DNA from: Paramuribaculum sp.
GTDB lineage: Bacteria > Bacteroidota > Bacteroidia > Bacteroidales > Muribaculaceae
Length of the DNA: 17,841 nucleotides
NCBI GenBank assembly: GCA_029051965.1
Contig: JAIDJZ010000041.1
Location: 1-17,841 of the forward strand
Direction of reading: 5' to 3'
A model generated the notes under the pieces. The model was not told the DNA's origin, ran no database searches, and saw only the letters and a program-made list of their open reading frames with translations. Each line of letters opens with the position of its first letter. Position 1 is the first letter of the stretch. Of this stretch, positions 6,715-9,925 are shown piece after piece. The translations under genes and the position numbers were made by a program.

Positions 6715-7737
6715 ATGTTAAAAAGACTGCTGTCATTCGTCGCTCTGTGGGCCGTTCTGGCCGGCTGCCATGAGGTTGAAGAATATCCAAACGATCCGCG
6801 TGGAAATTTTGAGGCTCTCTGGAATATCATTGACACCCGCTATTGTTTTCTCCTCGACAAGAATGTCGACTGGGACGAAGTCCATGAACGCTATTCGCAG
6901 CGTGTCAGCAACTCGATGACATCGCGTCAGCTTTTCGATCTCCTCGGTGAGATGCTTAACGAGCTTGAGGACGGACACACAAATCTTATGTCGCCCTTCG
7001 GATCGTCGTTCTACCGCAAATGGTGGAGTGACTATCCTCAGAACTATGACGAAAGACTGATCCAGCAGTATTATTTCAATTTCAACTACTATTCGATCGG
7101 GTCGTACACCTACGGATTTCTTCCGGACAATGTCGGCTATATCCATTATTCGACATTTGAGACCGGGCTCGGAAGCGGCAATATCGATCTGATTCTCGAT
7201 TATTTCAGCAGTGCCAACGGCCTGATCTTTGACGTGCGCGACAATGGTGGCGGAAATCTGACGAATGTCGAGCAGATTGTGAGCCGATTCATCGACGAGC
7301 GGATCAAGGCAGGCTACATTATCCACAAGACCGGCCCGGGCCACAGTGATTTTGATGAGCCGTTTGCCTATTATATCGATCCGGTCGGCGGAGGACACCT
7401 TGCGTGGACAAAACCGGTTGTTGTTCTGGCTAACAGAAGCACGTTCAGCGCAGCCAACAATTTCGTTTCGATCATGAAGTCGCTGCCTCATGTGACTGTG
7501 GCAGGAAGTACGACGGGTGGCGGCAGCGGCATGCCGTTCAATTCGGAGCTGCCCAATGGCTGGGGGGTGCGTTTCTCCGCCTGTTCGATTCTTGACAGCA
7601 GCGGTGCCGTGACTGAATTCGGTGTTGAACCGACAGAGGGCTGCGCTGTCGACATGGATCCGGATGCCGCAGCATCCGGTCATGACACGATTCTTGATTT
7701 CGCGATCCGTCGTCTTCTCAGCGGGGCGGGTAGCTGA
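6715..7737 (+). CDS. S41-family peptidase, lipoprotein (C-terminal-processing / tricorn-core type)
   Basis: This is a serine protease of family S41, probably periplasmic or surface-anchored. The N-terminus MLKRLLSFVALWAVLAGC is a lipoprotein signal with lipobox LAGC and lipidated Cys18. Residues 30-100 form the helical N-terminal region ending in LEDGHTNLM, typical of Bacteroidetes S41 proteins. The catalytic core is about 135-330. It includes LIFDVRDNGGGNL, then NRSTFSAANNFV with predicted nucleophile Ser245, then AGSTTGGGSG forming the oxyanion-side loop. No PDZ domain is visible between the N-terminal region and the core, which makes this a short form (340 residues). It is last in the parC operon. 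Its last 20 bp overlap the 3' end of trpB on the other strand. Confidence 0.88.
   Translation: MLKRLLSFVALWAVLAGCHEVEEYPNDPRGNFEALWNIIDTRYCFLLDKNVDWDEVHERYSQRVSNSMTSRQLFDLLGEMLNELEDGHTNLMSPFGSSFYRKWWSDYPQNYDERLIQQYYFNFNYYSIGSYTYGFLPDNVGYIHYSTFETGLGSGNIDLILDYFSSANGLIFDVRDNGGGNLTNVEQIVSRFIDERIKAGYIIHKTGPGHSDFDEPFAYYIDPVGGGHLAWTKPVVVLANRSTFSAANNFVSIMKSLPHVTVAGSTTGGGSGMPFNSELPNGWGVRFSACSILDSSGAVTEFGVEPTEGCAVDMDPDAAASGHDTILDFAIRRLLSGAGS
7660..7679. other. Intragenic hairpin near the convergent S41/trpB 3' ends
   Basis: CCGGATGC (7660-7667) and GCATCCGG (7672-7679) form a perfect 8-bp stem around the tetraloop CGCA. It lies inside the S41 coding region and 39 nt past the trpB stop. No U tract follows on either strand, so a terminator role is only a possibility. 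Confidence 0.35.
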
Positions 7738-8920
7738 GGAAGGTCTCCATGTCTTTATCGCCGCGTCCCGATAGGCTGACAACCACAATGTCGTCGGGCT
7801 GAAACGCTGTCTTGTCGAGCGCGGCCAGCGCATGGCTGCTCTCAAGGGCCGGAATGATTCCTTCACGACGGGCAAGATTGTAGGCAGCCGCAAGCGCTTC
7901 ATTGTCGTCAGCGACTATTATTTCGGCACGTTTTTGCTGCGCAAGGCATGCTATGAGCGGCCCGACTCCCGGATAGTCCAGTCCGGACGAGATCGAATAG
8001 GCTTCTGCTGGGGTTCCGTCCGGGCGTGTCAGCACCATTGTCTTTGAGCCGTGGAGAACGGCCGGTGTGCCTGCGCTGAGGGATGCAGCTGTTTCGCGCG
8101 ACTCAATTCCATGTCCGCCGGCTTCAACGGCAATCAGTCTTACTTCCGGATTGTCGAGGAAATGATAGAATGCGCCGGAGGCATTGCTCCCGCCTCCGAT
8201 ACATGCTATTACGCAGTCGGGATTCTCGCGGCCGGTCATTTCTTTCAGCTGCAGCCGGATTTCGTGGCTGATGACTGACTGAAACCGGCTGACAATTTCC
8301 GGATAGGGGTGAGGGCCCACGGCACTTCCGATCAGATAGAAAATCTCGTCCGGATTTGCGGACCATGCGGCAAGAGCCGCATCGACGGCGCTGGAGAGTG
8401 TCGCGCTGCCGCTGTCGACCGGGATTACTTTTGCGCCAAGCATTTCCATTCTCATTACGTTCGGGTGCTGGCGACGCACATCTTCAGCGCCCATGAAGAT
8501 TTCGCATTCCAGTCCGAGAAGGGCCGCAACGGTTGCCGTGGCTACGCCGTGTTGTCCTGCGCCGGTTTCGGCTATGATTTTTTTCTTGCCCATACGTACG
8601 GCCAAAAGGGCCTGTCCGATTGCATTGTTGATCTTGTGGGCGCCGGTGTGGTTCAGATCTTCACGTTTAAGGAAAATCTTAGTTCCGTATTGACTGCTCA
8701 GTGATGGGGAGTAATATAGCGGAGTGGGGCGTCCGACATAGTCGTGGAGCAGACGGTCGTATTCTGTCAGAAATGTCGGGTCGGCAATGTTTTTGCGAAA
8801 TGCCTCATCGAGTTCGCGGATGATCGGGAGAAGTTTTTCCGGGACATATGCGCCACCGAAAGAGCCGTAGAAGCCGTCGGAATCGACGGGGAGCAGATTG
8901 TCGAGAGGGTAGTGGATCAT
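7718..8920 (-). CDS. trpB: Tryptophan synthase beta chain
   Basis: This is the PLP-dependent beta subunit of tryptophan synthase, joining indole and L-serine to give L-tryptophan in the cytoplasm. From ATG 8920 the protein is 400 residues. It shows FYGSFGGAYVPE at 17-28, KREDLNHTGAHKINN with the PLP lysine Lys96, AETGAGQHG with the catalytic Glu118, and the phosphate-binding GGGSNASG loop. SSGLDYPGVGP marks the TrpB1 class. I chose 8920 because the frame upstream of it runs back through a transcription terminator and is not conserved-looking; a start at 9019 is therefore unlikely. No trpA or other trp gene is next to it. The gene's 3' end overlaps the convergent S41 gene by 20 bp. Expression is predicted to be controlled by the attenuator and leader peptide at 8975-9133. 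Confidence 0.95.
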   Translation of the reverse strand: MIHYPLDNLLPVDSDGFYGSFGGAYVPEKLLPIIRELDEAFRKNIADPTFLTEYDRLLHDYVGRPTPLYYSPSLSSQYGTKIFLKREDLNHTGAHKINNAIGQALLAVRMGKKKIIAETGAGQHGVATATVAALLGLECEIFMGAEDVRRQHPNVMRMEMLGAKVIPVDSGSATLSSAVDAALAAWSANPDEIFYLIGSAVGPHPYPEIVSRFQSVISHEIRLQLKEMTGRENPDCVIACIGGGSNASGAFYHFLDNPEVRLIAVEAGGHGIESRETAASLSAGTPAVLHGSKTMVLTRPDGTPAEAYSISSGLDYPGVGPLIACLAQQKRAEIIVADDNEALAAAYNLARREGIIPALESSHALAALDKTAFQPDDIVVVSLSGRGDKDMETFLSYPPR

Positions 8921-8974
8921 AATAATGAAATTGGGGTGTAGGATGTTTTTGGGTGGAGTTGGCGATGTGTAGTG

Positions 8975-9010
8975 AAAAAAAAGAGCCGCCTTGCTTAACA
9001 GCAGTGCGGC
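8975..9010 (-). terminator. Intrinsic terminator of the trp attenuator, 55 nt before trpB
   Basis: On the minus strand, GCCGC-A-CTGCT (9010-9000), loop GTTA and AGCAA-G-GCGGC (8995-8985) make a 10-pair stem with one internal mismatch and one wobble. TC and eight T (8982-8975) follow. It lies between the leader peptide and trpB, so it terminates transcription before the gene rather than after one. Confidence 0.87.
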
Positions 9011-9098
9011 ACACATCAAAATATAATATAACCTATTGAAAATTATCTATGGATTAGTAACGTTCCATGACAGATGCCGCACTTCGGAAATCGAGTGC
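9003..9098 (-). promoter_or_regulatory. trpL: Antiterminator and protector pairing segments of the trp leader
   Basis: Read as minus-strand RNA, segment 1 is GCACT (9098-9094), segment 2 is AGUGCGGCA (9083-9075) and segment 3 is UGCCGCACU (9011-9003), the 5' arm of the terminator. Segments 2 and 3 pair perfectly over 9 bp, plus a U-G at 9074/9012; this excludes the terminator. Segments 1 and 2 pair over 5 bp, plus two inner pairs; this would free segment 3 for termination. Segment 1 begins 2 nt past the second of two tandem Trp codons, so a ribosome stalled there would cover it. The geometry follows the classical enteric trp attenuator. Confidence 0.82.
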
Positions 9099-9133
9099 TG
9101 CCACCATAACTGTATGTTTGTGCGGGTTGTCAT
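9047..9133 (-). CDS. trpL: trp leader peptide with tandem Trp codons (28 residues)
   Basis: This short ORF begins ATG ACA ACC CGC at 9133 and ends at TAG 9049-9047. The peptide starts MTTRTNIQLWWQHSISEVRH and ends LSWNVTNP. Trp residues are at 10, 11 and 23; the two tandem TGG codons are at 9106-9101. Three Trp in 28 residues is far above background. The ORF starts about 15 nt after the predicted transcript start, and its codons 12-20 include pairing segments 1 and 2. I see no Shine-Dalgarno, but an A-rich stretch precedes the ATG, as for other genes here. The peptide itself probably has no function beyond sensing charged tRNA-Trp. No alignment was possible, but sequence, position and structure agree. 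Confidence 0.88.
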   Translation of the reverse strand: MTTRTNIQLWWQHSISEVRHLSWNVTNP

Positions 9134-9154
9134 GAATGATGTTTTTTATCGATG

Positions 9155-9186
9155 CAAAATTAGAAATGTTTTAAATAATATACAAA
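9155..9186 (-). promoter_or_regulatory. Promoter of the trp leader and trpB
   Basis: On the minus strand TTTG (9186-9183) is followed after 20 bp by TAATTTTG (9162-9155), matching TTTG-N19-TAnnTTTG with one extra spacer base. The start would be near 9148, giving a leader RNA of about 15 nt before the leader peptide ATG. Confidence 0.75.
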
Positions 9187-9234
9187 TATTTGAATAAAAA
9201 AGTTTGAATTTTGTGGAAAAGATGAATAATTTAT

Positions 9235-9255
9235 CGCATATGCAGTAAATATGCG
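9235..9255. repeat. Short inverted repeat upstream of the trp leader promoter
   Basis: CGCATAT (9235-9241) and ATATGCG (9249-9255) are perfect 7-bp arms separated by 7 bp. It lies about 50 bp upstream of the -33 element of the trpL promoter in an otherwise gene-free stretch. It could be a DNA operator or chance; nothing shows which. Nothing else gene-like is visible between 9187 and 9311. Confidence 0.4.
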
Positions 9256-9302: not shown

Positions 9303-9348
9303 AAAATAACAGGCGCTGTGTCAAAATTCATAATTTTGACACAGCGCC
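9303..9348 (-). terminator. Strong hairpin terminator behind the PepSY-like lipoprotein gene
   Basis: GGCGCTGTGTCAAAATT (9312-9328) and its exact complement (9332-9348) form a perfect 17-bp stem closed by the triloop CAT. On the minus strand it is followed by TGTTATTTT, an imperfect U tract. It begins 46 nt past the stop at 9395, isolating that gene from the trp leader promoter downstream. Confidence 0.75.
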
Positions 9349-9394: not shown

Positions 9395-9925
9395 TCAGAA
9401 AACCGTGTCGGGGGTTACGTCGGCATCGGTGTCAGGAATCGCTTTGACAAATGTGTAGTCCTCGCCTGAGAATATCAGAAGGAGATCTCCGGTCTGATCA
9501 GTCGGAGTCACTTCGATTACGTAAACATCCTTTTCGGTCTGCGGATATTCATAGAAAGAAATGTCATCGACTTTTGCCGTACGGTATTCGGTTTTGTTGA
9601 AAGCGGTGTTCAGACCTGCAGGGGCGAGGAAGAAGTCCTTGCCGTAGTCTGTTTCGGTCATAGCCCAGCTGTCGGTTGCCTGTTCGGCCAGTTTGAACCA
9701 GGCTTCTTTTTCAGTAAGGCCGCCGGCTTCAGACCACTCTGCAGTGTAGTAGATTCCCTCTTTTTCCCATTTCGGGTTTGTTACCTGAGGATACTTTGCC
9801 TGAAAAGCTTCCTTGCATACAGAGGGTACGGACGAGATTGCGGGATCGTCATCGTCGTCGCATCCCGCAAGCGGAAGTGCTGCCGCAAAGGCTGTCATTC
9901 CGATGAGAATTAATTTGAAATTCAT
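9395..9925 (-). CDS. PepSY-like (beta-lactamase-inhibitor-like) lipoprotein
   Basis: This is a 176-residue lipoprotein. Its signal MNFKLILIGMTAFAAALPLA runs into lipobox LAGC with lipidated Cys22. Five Asp follow the Cys immediately, resembling the acidic lipoprotein export signal described for Bacteroidetes surface lipoproteins, so surface exposure is possible. The body holds two related modules, about residues 33-96 and 104-163. The first has the family signature AFQAKYPQVTNPKWEKEG-YYTAEW; the second ends in YVIEVTPTDQTGDLLLIFSG. This matches the Bacteroidetes PepSY-like putative beta-lactamase-inhibitor-like family, whose real function is unknown. The gene is monocistronic as seen: its own terminator follows, and the next gene upstream (10140-11093) is 214 bp away. 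No convincing promoter consensus was found in that gap. Confidence 0.8.
   Translation of the reverse strand: MNFKLILIGMTAFAAALPLAGCDDDDDPAISSVPSVCKEAFQAKYPQVTNPKWEKEGIYYTAEWSEAGGLTEKEAWFKLAEQATDSWAMTETDYGKDFFLAPAGLNTAFNKTEYRTAKVDDISFYEYPQTEKDVYVIEVTPTDQTGDLLLIFSGEDYTFVKAIPDTDADVTPDTVF

Follow-up and report, generated by a model that had tools for sequence, protein, structure and literature searches.

The window, a stretch of 17,841 nt from a Paramuribaculum sp. genome (Bacteroidales, Muribaculaceae; contig JAIDJZ010000041.1 of assembly GCA_029051965.1), encodes on its minus strand a tryptophan synthase beta subunit (trpB, 7718–8920, 400 aa; 561.7 bits against TIGR00263, cut-off 392.45) with no other trp gene adjoining it. 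This raises the question of how a stand-alone trpB is controlled and what it serves. The original prediction placed a ribosome-mediated tryptophan attenuator ahead of the gene. Its core was upheld by the retention of the Trp codons in relatives, by covariation between the antiterminator and the terminator and by simulated ribosome stalling. We consider it highly probable that the leader senses charged tRNA-Trp and controls the stand-alone trpB in this way, probably for the salvage of indole.

The leader was read on the minus strand. Inspection of the sequence located the promoter (9155–9186) as TTTG (9186–9183), a 20-nt spacer and TAATTTTG (9162–9155). Promoters of Bacteroidota have the consensus TTTG/TAnnTTTG; the element bearing TAATTTTG matched this consensus and not that of sigma-70, and transcription would be expected to start at about 9150. 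Of the 34 leaders found by scanning the family, 30 had a TAnnTTTG box no more than 80 nt ahead of their ATG. The leader ORF (9047–9133), coding for MTTRTNIQLWWQHSISEVRHLSWNVTNP, has 28 codons plus TAG, and relatives have a leader with WW or WxW at the same position. Codons 10 and 11 are tandem TGG TGG (9106–9101), the putative sensing codons. Segment 1 (GCACTCG, 9098–9092), the partner of segment 2, begins 2 nt past them. Segment 2 (AGTGCGGCA, 9083–9075), the antiterminator segment, lies within the ORF, whose stop codon (TAG, 9049–9047) is found 26 nt beyond it. Segment 3 (TGCCGCACT, 9011–9003) is the perfect complement of segment 2 and doubles as the 5' arm of an intrinsic terminator (8975–9010), which consists of a hairpin (9010–8985, −15.1 kcal/mol), TC and a U8 tract (8982–8975). 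The 9 contiguous pairs of segments 2 and 3 give a duplex (2:3) of −18.9 kcal/mol; the hairpin of segments 1 and 2 (1:2) amounts to −9.5 kcal/mol, or −13.7 kcal/mol if extended to the Trp codons. Each of these parts, from the consensus-like promoter and the placement of segments 1 and 2 to the perfect 2:3 pairing and the terminator built on segment 3, had been described in the original prediction and was recovered as described. At the sequence level, the leader has the trpL-type features of tandem codons for the product amino acid in a leader ORF and a terminator ahead of the structural gene. Between the leader and the upstream gene (9395–9925, minus strand), a near-perfect long hairpin (GGCGCTGTGTCAAAATT...AATTTTGACACAGCGCC, 9312–9348) was observed; it is probably the terminator of that gene, insulating the attenuator.

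The structure exceeded chance expectations. When the 171-nt leader was shuffled 200 times with dinucleotides preserved, only one version folded at least equally well (z −3.2), and in 200 mononucleotide shuffles the upstream RNA never equalled the stability of the 2:3 duplex. Short ORFs opening with ATG and containing WW or WxW arose in 38 of 1800 dinucleotide shuffles of leader-bearing upstream regions and on none of their 45 reverse strands; the 45 regions used in this control had been selected for possessing a leader.

Homologous leaders kept the Trp codons in most relatives. Of 119 family genomes searched, 41 had a close TrpB (E < 1e-100), and a scan of up to 420 nt upstream of trpB for a short ATG ORF containing WW or WxW found such a leader ahead of 34 of these 41 genes. 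Leaders without the Trp codons would speak against attenuation, and seven loci lacked a leader by scan; however, one of them (G031) has WRWW by eye and in another (G093) the contig ends too near trpB. G006 has a single-Trp variant, and in G056, G012, G026 and G113 no leader was seen upstream of trpB by eye either. Within the genus, trpB was present in 15 of 34 genomes and preceded by a WW leader at all 15 loci (4 from the family scan, 11 from a genus scan). TGGTGG was invariant in all 30 aligned leaders, the aligned stretches having been anchored on TGGTGG. No terminator was called in four of the 34 leader-bearing family loci (G047, G087, G011 and G007).

In the other families of the order, 54 TrpB loci were scanned; 19 were positive, of which 17 were counted as genuine and two (L194 and L221) were judged to be chance. 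Where trpB was seemingly the first gene, a leader was present at 17 of 24 loci (16 after removal of one judged to be chance), and where a long frame abutted trpB, at 2 of 30 (1 after the same correction). At one locus of another family (L161), a WW leader (MNYFIVNIYWWRRLLLCKLRAG, position 1476) and a terminator were found ahead of trpE, not trpB. In G056 and G012 (L088 and L095), trpB and a trpG/trpD block were on separate contigs and the scan detected no Trp leader ahead of trpB; the stretches fetched from the second contigs of these two genomes yielded no trpE.

An attenuator predicts that segments 2 and 3 change together, and this was what we observed. Thirty family leaders had a called terminator, and 21 of them were used to build alignment A2 and covariance model R1. 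The genome of the window (G000, 88% complete) was deliberately held out; G105, G070, G051, G104, G002, G101 and G083 were excluded as misaligned by MAFFT in our judgement, and G077 because of an N, exclusions that favour regular members. In these 21 relatives, 96.4% of the cells of helix 2:3 were paired and 10 cells were changed on both sides. None of 500 shuffles scored as high in paired cells, double-changed cells or covariation score. Two of the five measures were not beyond the shuffles, namely the number of pairs changed on both sides (3 of 8, reached by 48 of 500 shuffles) and the 7 further pair types (50 of 500). Slid partners of helix 2:3 paired in 8–59%. The terminator helix, formed by segments 3 and 4 (3:4), was paired in 97.6% of cells with 4 pairs changed on both sides. 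The least conserved helix was 1:2, with 80.7% paired cells and a single pair showing changes on both sides, and helices 1:2 and 3:4 combined had 90.6% of cells paired.

An alignment-free swap test gave the same picture. Across 28 genomes, omitting G037 (bad terminator call) and G077 (N), each leader paired with its own segment 3 at −15.5 kcal/mol on average and with swapped ones at −11.5 kcal/mol (permutation p 5e-5). In the 16 genomes without the common GCCATCG, the values were −15.6 and −10.5 kcal/mol (permutation p 5e-5). Further versions gave p 5e-5 with 39 genomes and 1e-4 with 15 genomes of the genus, and were weakened by the anchoring of G418, G419 and G421 on a wrong upstream TGGTGG. 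A cruder version with 10 nt of the terminator arm, superseded by the full-arm test, gave p 5e-5 (30 genomes) and 0.00135 (21 genomes without CATCG). Between G000 and its closest relative, G426 (TrpB 78% identical), helix 2:3 contained a double change from A-U to U-A; the helix of G426 is shorter, with 7 contiguous pairs. By covariation and by the swap test, then, the leaders contain an antiterminator whose pairing excludes the terminator.

The covariance-model search gave a mixed outcome. The held-out model matched the window element (8975–9109, minus strand) as its sole match in the window (E 9.4e-4), whereas a whole-genome search of G000 by this model, run under stricter filters, missed the element. 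An order-wide search listed 182 of 295 genomes at E <= 1. Thirty of these loci were fetched; tblastn placed three beside trp genes, and of eight inspected by eye only L161 was a new leader. The remaining matches were taken to be plain terminators or chance, and no prevalence was drawn from them.

These data also bear on another reading, in which a small RNA or short peptide gene simply ends at the hairpin as its plain terminator and trpB is transcribed from its own downstream promoter. The Bacteroides small RNA family BTnc201 (RF04177) does align over its full length to 8976–9058, the terminator half of the leader, yet with 21 bits against a cut-off of 105. A plain terminator would not predict the covariation of segments 2 and 3; moreover, the leader, antiterminator and terminator are retained jointly upstream of trpB, and the combination of leader and terminator also precedes trpE at one locus of another family. 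We therefore regard this reading as very improbable and retain attenuation of trpB.

The effect of ribosome position was simulated with 31 nt masked and with RNA up to segment 3 only, the 5' end being placed either at 9147 or at the ATG. When codons 10–11 occupied the A site, segment 1 was hidden, 1:2 was excluded and the pairing probability of 2:3, P(2:3), was 0.98, in agreement with the claimed logic of stalling. With the A site on codons 16–24, 8–9 of the 9 segment 2 bases were covered and P(2:3) was 0.00 in both set-ups, so that in silico a ribosome stalled on the tandem codons and one that had passed them had opposite effects. On codons 12–13, P(2:3) was 0.29–0.31 or 0.98 depending on the 5' end. 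On codons 4–9 it was 0.93–0.99, like on the Trp codons, and folding therefore bounds the stall site on the downstream side only. P(2:3) was also high in ribosome-free RNA before segment 4 is made (0.66 or 0.97, set by the choice of 5' end) and with a ribosome at the stop codon (0.95–0.96), because 2:3 is more stable than 1:2. Since 2:3 outweighs 1:2 at equilibrium, termination under Trp-replete conditions must depend on kinetics and translation. When the full transcript was folded with a stalled ribosome, the probability of 3:4 was 0.20 in one set-up and 0.92–1.0 in another; this full-length equilibrium result depends on the set-up and was not leaned upon.

The same calculation was made for 27 relatives (the 30 leaders minus G000, G037 and G077) as the probability of segment 3 being sequestered by upstream RNA. 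The mean was 0.75–0.76 at the last two Trp codons, 0.33–0.36 four to six codons beyond them and 0.44 without a ribosome; two to five codons before the last Trp codon it was 0.62–0.76.

The third Trp codon (codon 23, 9065–9067), which the original prediction had noted alongside the tandem pair, is indeed in frame. With the A site on it, all 9 segment 2 bases were covered and P(2:3) was 0.00; a stall there is predicted to favour termination, not read-through, and this codon is not predicted to be a regulatory stall site like the tandem pair. Ahead of the Trp codons, the motif CCGCAC (9120–9125) is able to pair with GTGCGG of segment 2 and is a possible further competitor for it. This pairing reached a probability of 0.46–0.50 with the A site on codons 12–14 and the 5' end at 9147, but not with the ATG end, and it was left out of the model because its mean was 0.07 in the 27 relatives.

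That the stall scan does not separate the Trp codons from those just upstream would also be expected if the nascent peptide sensed Trp itself within the ribosome, as in TnaC-like arrest, in place of codon hunger. A short Trp peptide does precede the switch, and residues such as NIQY or NTYW are common immediately ahead of WW. Arrest peptides require defined residues, however, and the leader peptides vary widely in length and sequence outside WW/WxW. TnaC-type sensing induces with Trp, the opposite of what a Trp-producing gene would call for. We consider such an arrest mechanism highly unlikely here, and sensing through the charging of tRNA-Trp remains the preferred reading.

We thus propose the following mechanism, which is very likely as stated. 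When Trp is scarce, the ribosome would stall at codons 10–11 and cover segment 1; segment 2 would capture segment 3 before segment 4 exists, and trpB would be transcribed. When Trp is plentiful, the ribosome would pass codons 10–11 and move onto segment 2, or be released, letting 1:2 form; the free segment 3 would then pair with segment 4 and transcription would end at the U-tract. As for the kinetics, we infer that the local hairpin 1:2 is the first to form, and that segment 2 is covered by the ribosome during the synthesis of segments 3 and 4. The original prediction held that 1:2 must re-form behind the ribosome, since segment 2 lies inside the coding region. Re-formation is one route to termination, though not the sole one, as a ribosome on codons 16–24 blocks 2:3 in the simulation. 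The passage of the ribosome would itself spare the terminator, with re-formed 1:2 as a second line. The TrpB induced in this way would make Trp from imported indole and serine.

The proposed substrate is suggested by the trp genes that were not found in this genome and by changes in TrpB itself. A joined TrpD-TrpC-TrpA query had no match in G000, nor in the genus members G105 and G008 (both 99% complete). In total, 11 trpB genomes had no TrpD/C/A match, comprising 8 of the 41 in the family and three more in the genus (G426, G428 and G421; 86–92% complete), and a WW leader was found at all 11 lone trpB loci. In a tree of 55 TrpBs, 10 of the 11 lone proteins, from five genus codes, grouped together behind a single branch supported at 100/99 (the window at 7718–8920, L083, L084, L086, L089, L101, L121, L226, L227 and L234). 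The eleventh, from G013 (L123), sat among operon-type TrpBs and apart from the other lone TrpBs in 200 of 200 bootstrap trees. If only the well-supported branches are considered, a single origin of the lone TrpBs including that of G013 may be compatible with the tree.

The lone clade differs from the other TrpBs at residues K167, N171 and R175 (E. coli numbering), which we take to be contacts with TrpA. K167 was present in 42 of 42 other TrpBs and in none of the 10 of the lone clade; the corresponding numbers were 41 of 42 and 1 of 10 for N171, and 41 of 42 and 0 of 10 for R175, the exception among the others for R175 being G013. This lone trpB outside the lone clade is thus already without R175, and possibly represents a recent loss of the operon. 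In contrast, K87, E109, Q114, H115, D305, E350 and S377 were kept in all 10 lone-clade TrpBs; the window TrpB keeps K87, E109 and S377. For the 230 sites with at least 90% conservation among the other TrpBs, retention in the lone clade averaged 86%. Among 318 windows of 13 alignment columns, the four least kept in the lone clade all start within the putative TrpA-contact helix, and the one starting exactly at the helix TLK ranks 17th least kept. A search for tryptophanase (PF01212) in 14 genomes gave at most 32 bits in the 11 lone-trpB genomes and 148.5 bits in G057, which is suggestive only. As trpD, trpC and trpA were not found and the TrpA-contact residues are lost, the induced enzyme most likely uses imported indole and serine, and the sequences suggest that the lone trpB serves the salvage of outside indole under Trp starvation.

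The same gene losses could be read as decay, with the attenuator and trpB as remnants of a lost trp operon. Besides the missing trpD, trpC and trpA, some lone TrpBs have end branches far above the median of 0.22 (G421: 0.86). A decaying remnant is difficult to reconcile with a WW leader at 11 of 11 lone trpB loci found, with matched trpB frames free of stops and catalytic residues retained by all 10 lone-clade proteins, or with the paired change that upholds helix 2:3 between G000 and G426. We rate this reading very improbable, and a maintained attenuator on a probable salvage gene remains our preferred explanation. Beyond the window, we tentatively put forward, with somewhat less than even confidence, that a TrpA-independent TrpB lineage with an eroded TrpA-contact helix and an intact active site, spread across several genera of the family, is a one-gene unit for indole salvage with its own Trp-starvation switch, and that this switch shares ancestry with Bacteroid-trp, having been rewired from the 3' arm to the 5' arm of the terminator.

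The interest of the locus seems to lie mainly in this changed wiring and in the salvage gene that the switch seemingly controls. If the proposal is true, Trp attenuation has outlasted the pathway whose control it evolved for, and auxotrophic gut bacteria retain a switch on a salvage enzyme, with their growth tied to the indole of their neighbours. It would also provide a natural series of TrpBs that have departed from TrpA. Attenuators that do the same job through the 5' arm or through the loop and 3' arm are a natural pair, in which the kinetics of co-transcriptional folding can be compared directly.

The original prediction supposed that such an attenuator ahead of a lone trpB might not have been described in detail before in Bacteroidales. 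As a class it is not new. Bacteroidota Trp peptide leaders are catalogued in Rfam as RF01692 (Bacteroidete tryptophan peptide leader RNA, Bacteroid-trp), and Bacteroid-trp is listed as cis-regulatory in a table of Weinberg et al. 2010 (PMC2864571). In the available text of PMC6414381, Bacteroid-trp is placed upstream of the Flavobacterium psychrophilum trp operon and likened to the E. coli leader, so that the E. coli logic has already been applied to it in that species. According to the accessible part of PMC9723704, transcriptome data suggest leader-peptide attenuation of amino-acid operons in F. psychrophilum, and the excerpted text of PMC7366714 calls short ORFs in long B. thetaiotaomicron leaders reminiscent of leader-peptide attenuation. 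A literature search, in which subscription journals were little covered, returned no account of the present leader branch or of a lone trpB controlled in this way.

The window element resembles RF01692 in combining a Trp-rich leader peptide, a terminator and trp genes in Bacteroidota. It is a divergent branch of the Trp peptide leaders that the RF01692 model misses. Against positions 8900–9250 of the window, RF01692 had no match at E <= 10, its cut-off of 49 bits not being reached. With stricter filters, it reached the cut-off in none of the 119 family genomes (best 40 bits, G083). It was over the cut-off in 7 of 149 genomes of the order and in the control Bacteroides ihuae. Upstream of trpB in the other families of the order, it matched 10 of 19 loci at E <= 0.1, 6 of them over the cut-off, with a best match of 90.7 bits. 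G083 (L128, L242) has a near-RF01692 leader (those 40 bits) and its TrpB clusters with one from a Bacteroidaceae record; its leader type and TrpB lineage agree, as if operon and leader had moved jointly. Of all Rfam families searched at gathering score, only a tRNA had a match in the window (no T-box and no enteric amino-acid leader), and the permissive matches (BTnc201, L20_leader and others) were dismissed as chance, being far below cut-off.

The two branches differ in wiring. Each call was made at p <= 0.05 with 200 shuffles, omitting G047, G087, G011 and G007, which had no called terminator. Among 24 leaders of the other families, the antiterminator segment that follows the Trp codons (GTCGTGAG etc.) faces the terminator loop and 3' arm in 20 cases but the 5' arm in a single one; for the 10 RF01692 matches among them, the corresponding counts are 9 and 0. 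Among 30 leaders of the window's family, in contrast, the antiterminator segment faces the 5' arm in 23 and the loop and 3' arm in 2. For the window antiterminator itself, p was 0.000 against the 5' arm and 0.820 against the loop and 3' arm (200 shuffles). The loop and 3'-arm wiring of RF01692-type leaders is a feature found here, outside the Rfam description, and is absent from the window.

Known salvage loci offer a second comparison. Chlamydia trachomatis trpRBA likewise shows Trp-dependent control of a tryptophan-synthase salvage locus, as set out in the available sections of PMC7755916, which also give the E. coli trp attenuation logic. There, control is exerted by TrpR and YtgR, the latter made via a WWW motif and acting in trans, and the annotated trpL is described as unvalidated and without consecutive Trp codons (PMC7755916). 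Unlike the window genome, Chlamydia retains trpA. Incomplete Trp pathways of human gut genomes are similar in that auxotrophs retain the final step and possibly live on salvaged indole (PMC9026213, in the text available); the table given there has a class with TrpA and TrpB (14 genomes) and no TrpB-only class, and the same text does not treat trp regulation.

The E. coli trp leader, trpL, resembles the window element in its tandem Trp codons, its segments 1–4 and an antiterminator capturing the terminator's 5' arm. In E. coli trpL, the stop codon lies between segments 1 and 2. The window element departs from this plan in that segment 2 is within the ORF, with the stop 26 nt beyond, and in that it precedes one gene, not an operon.
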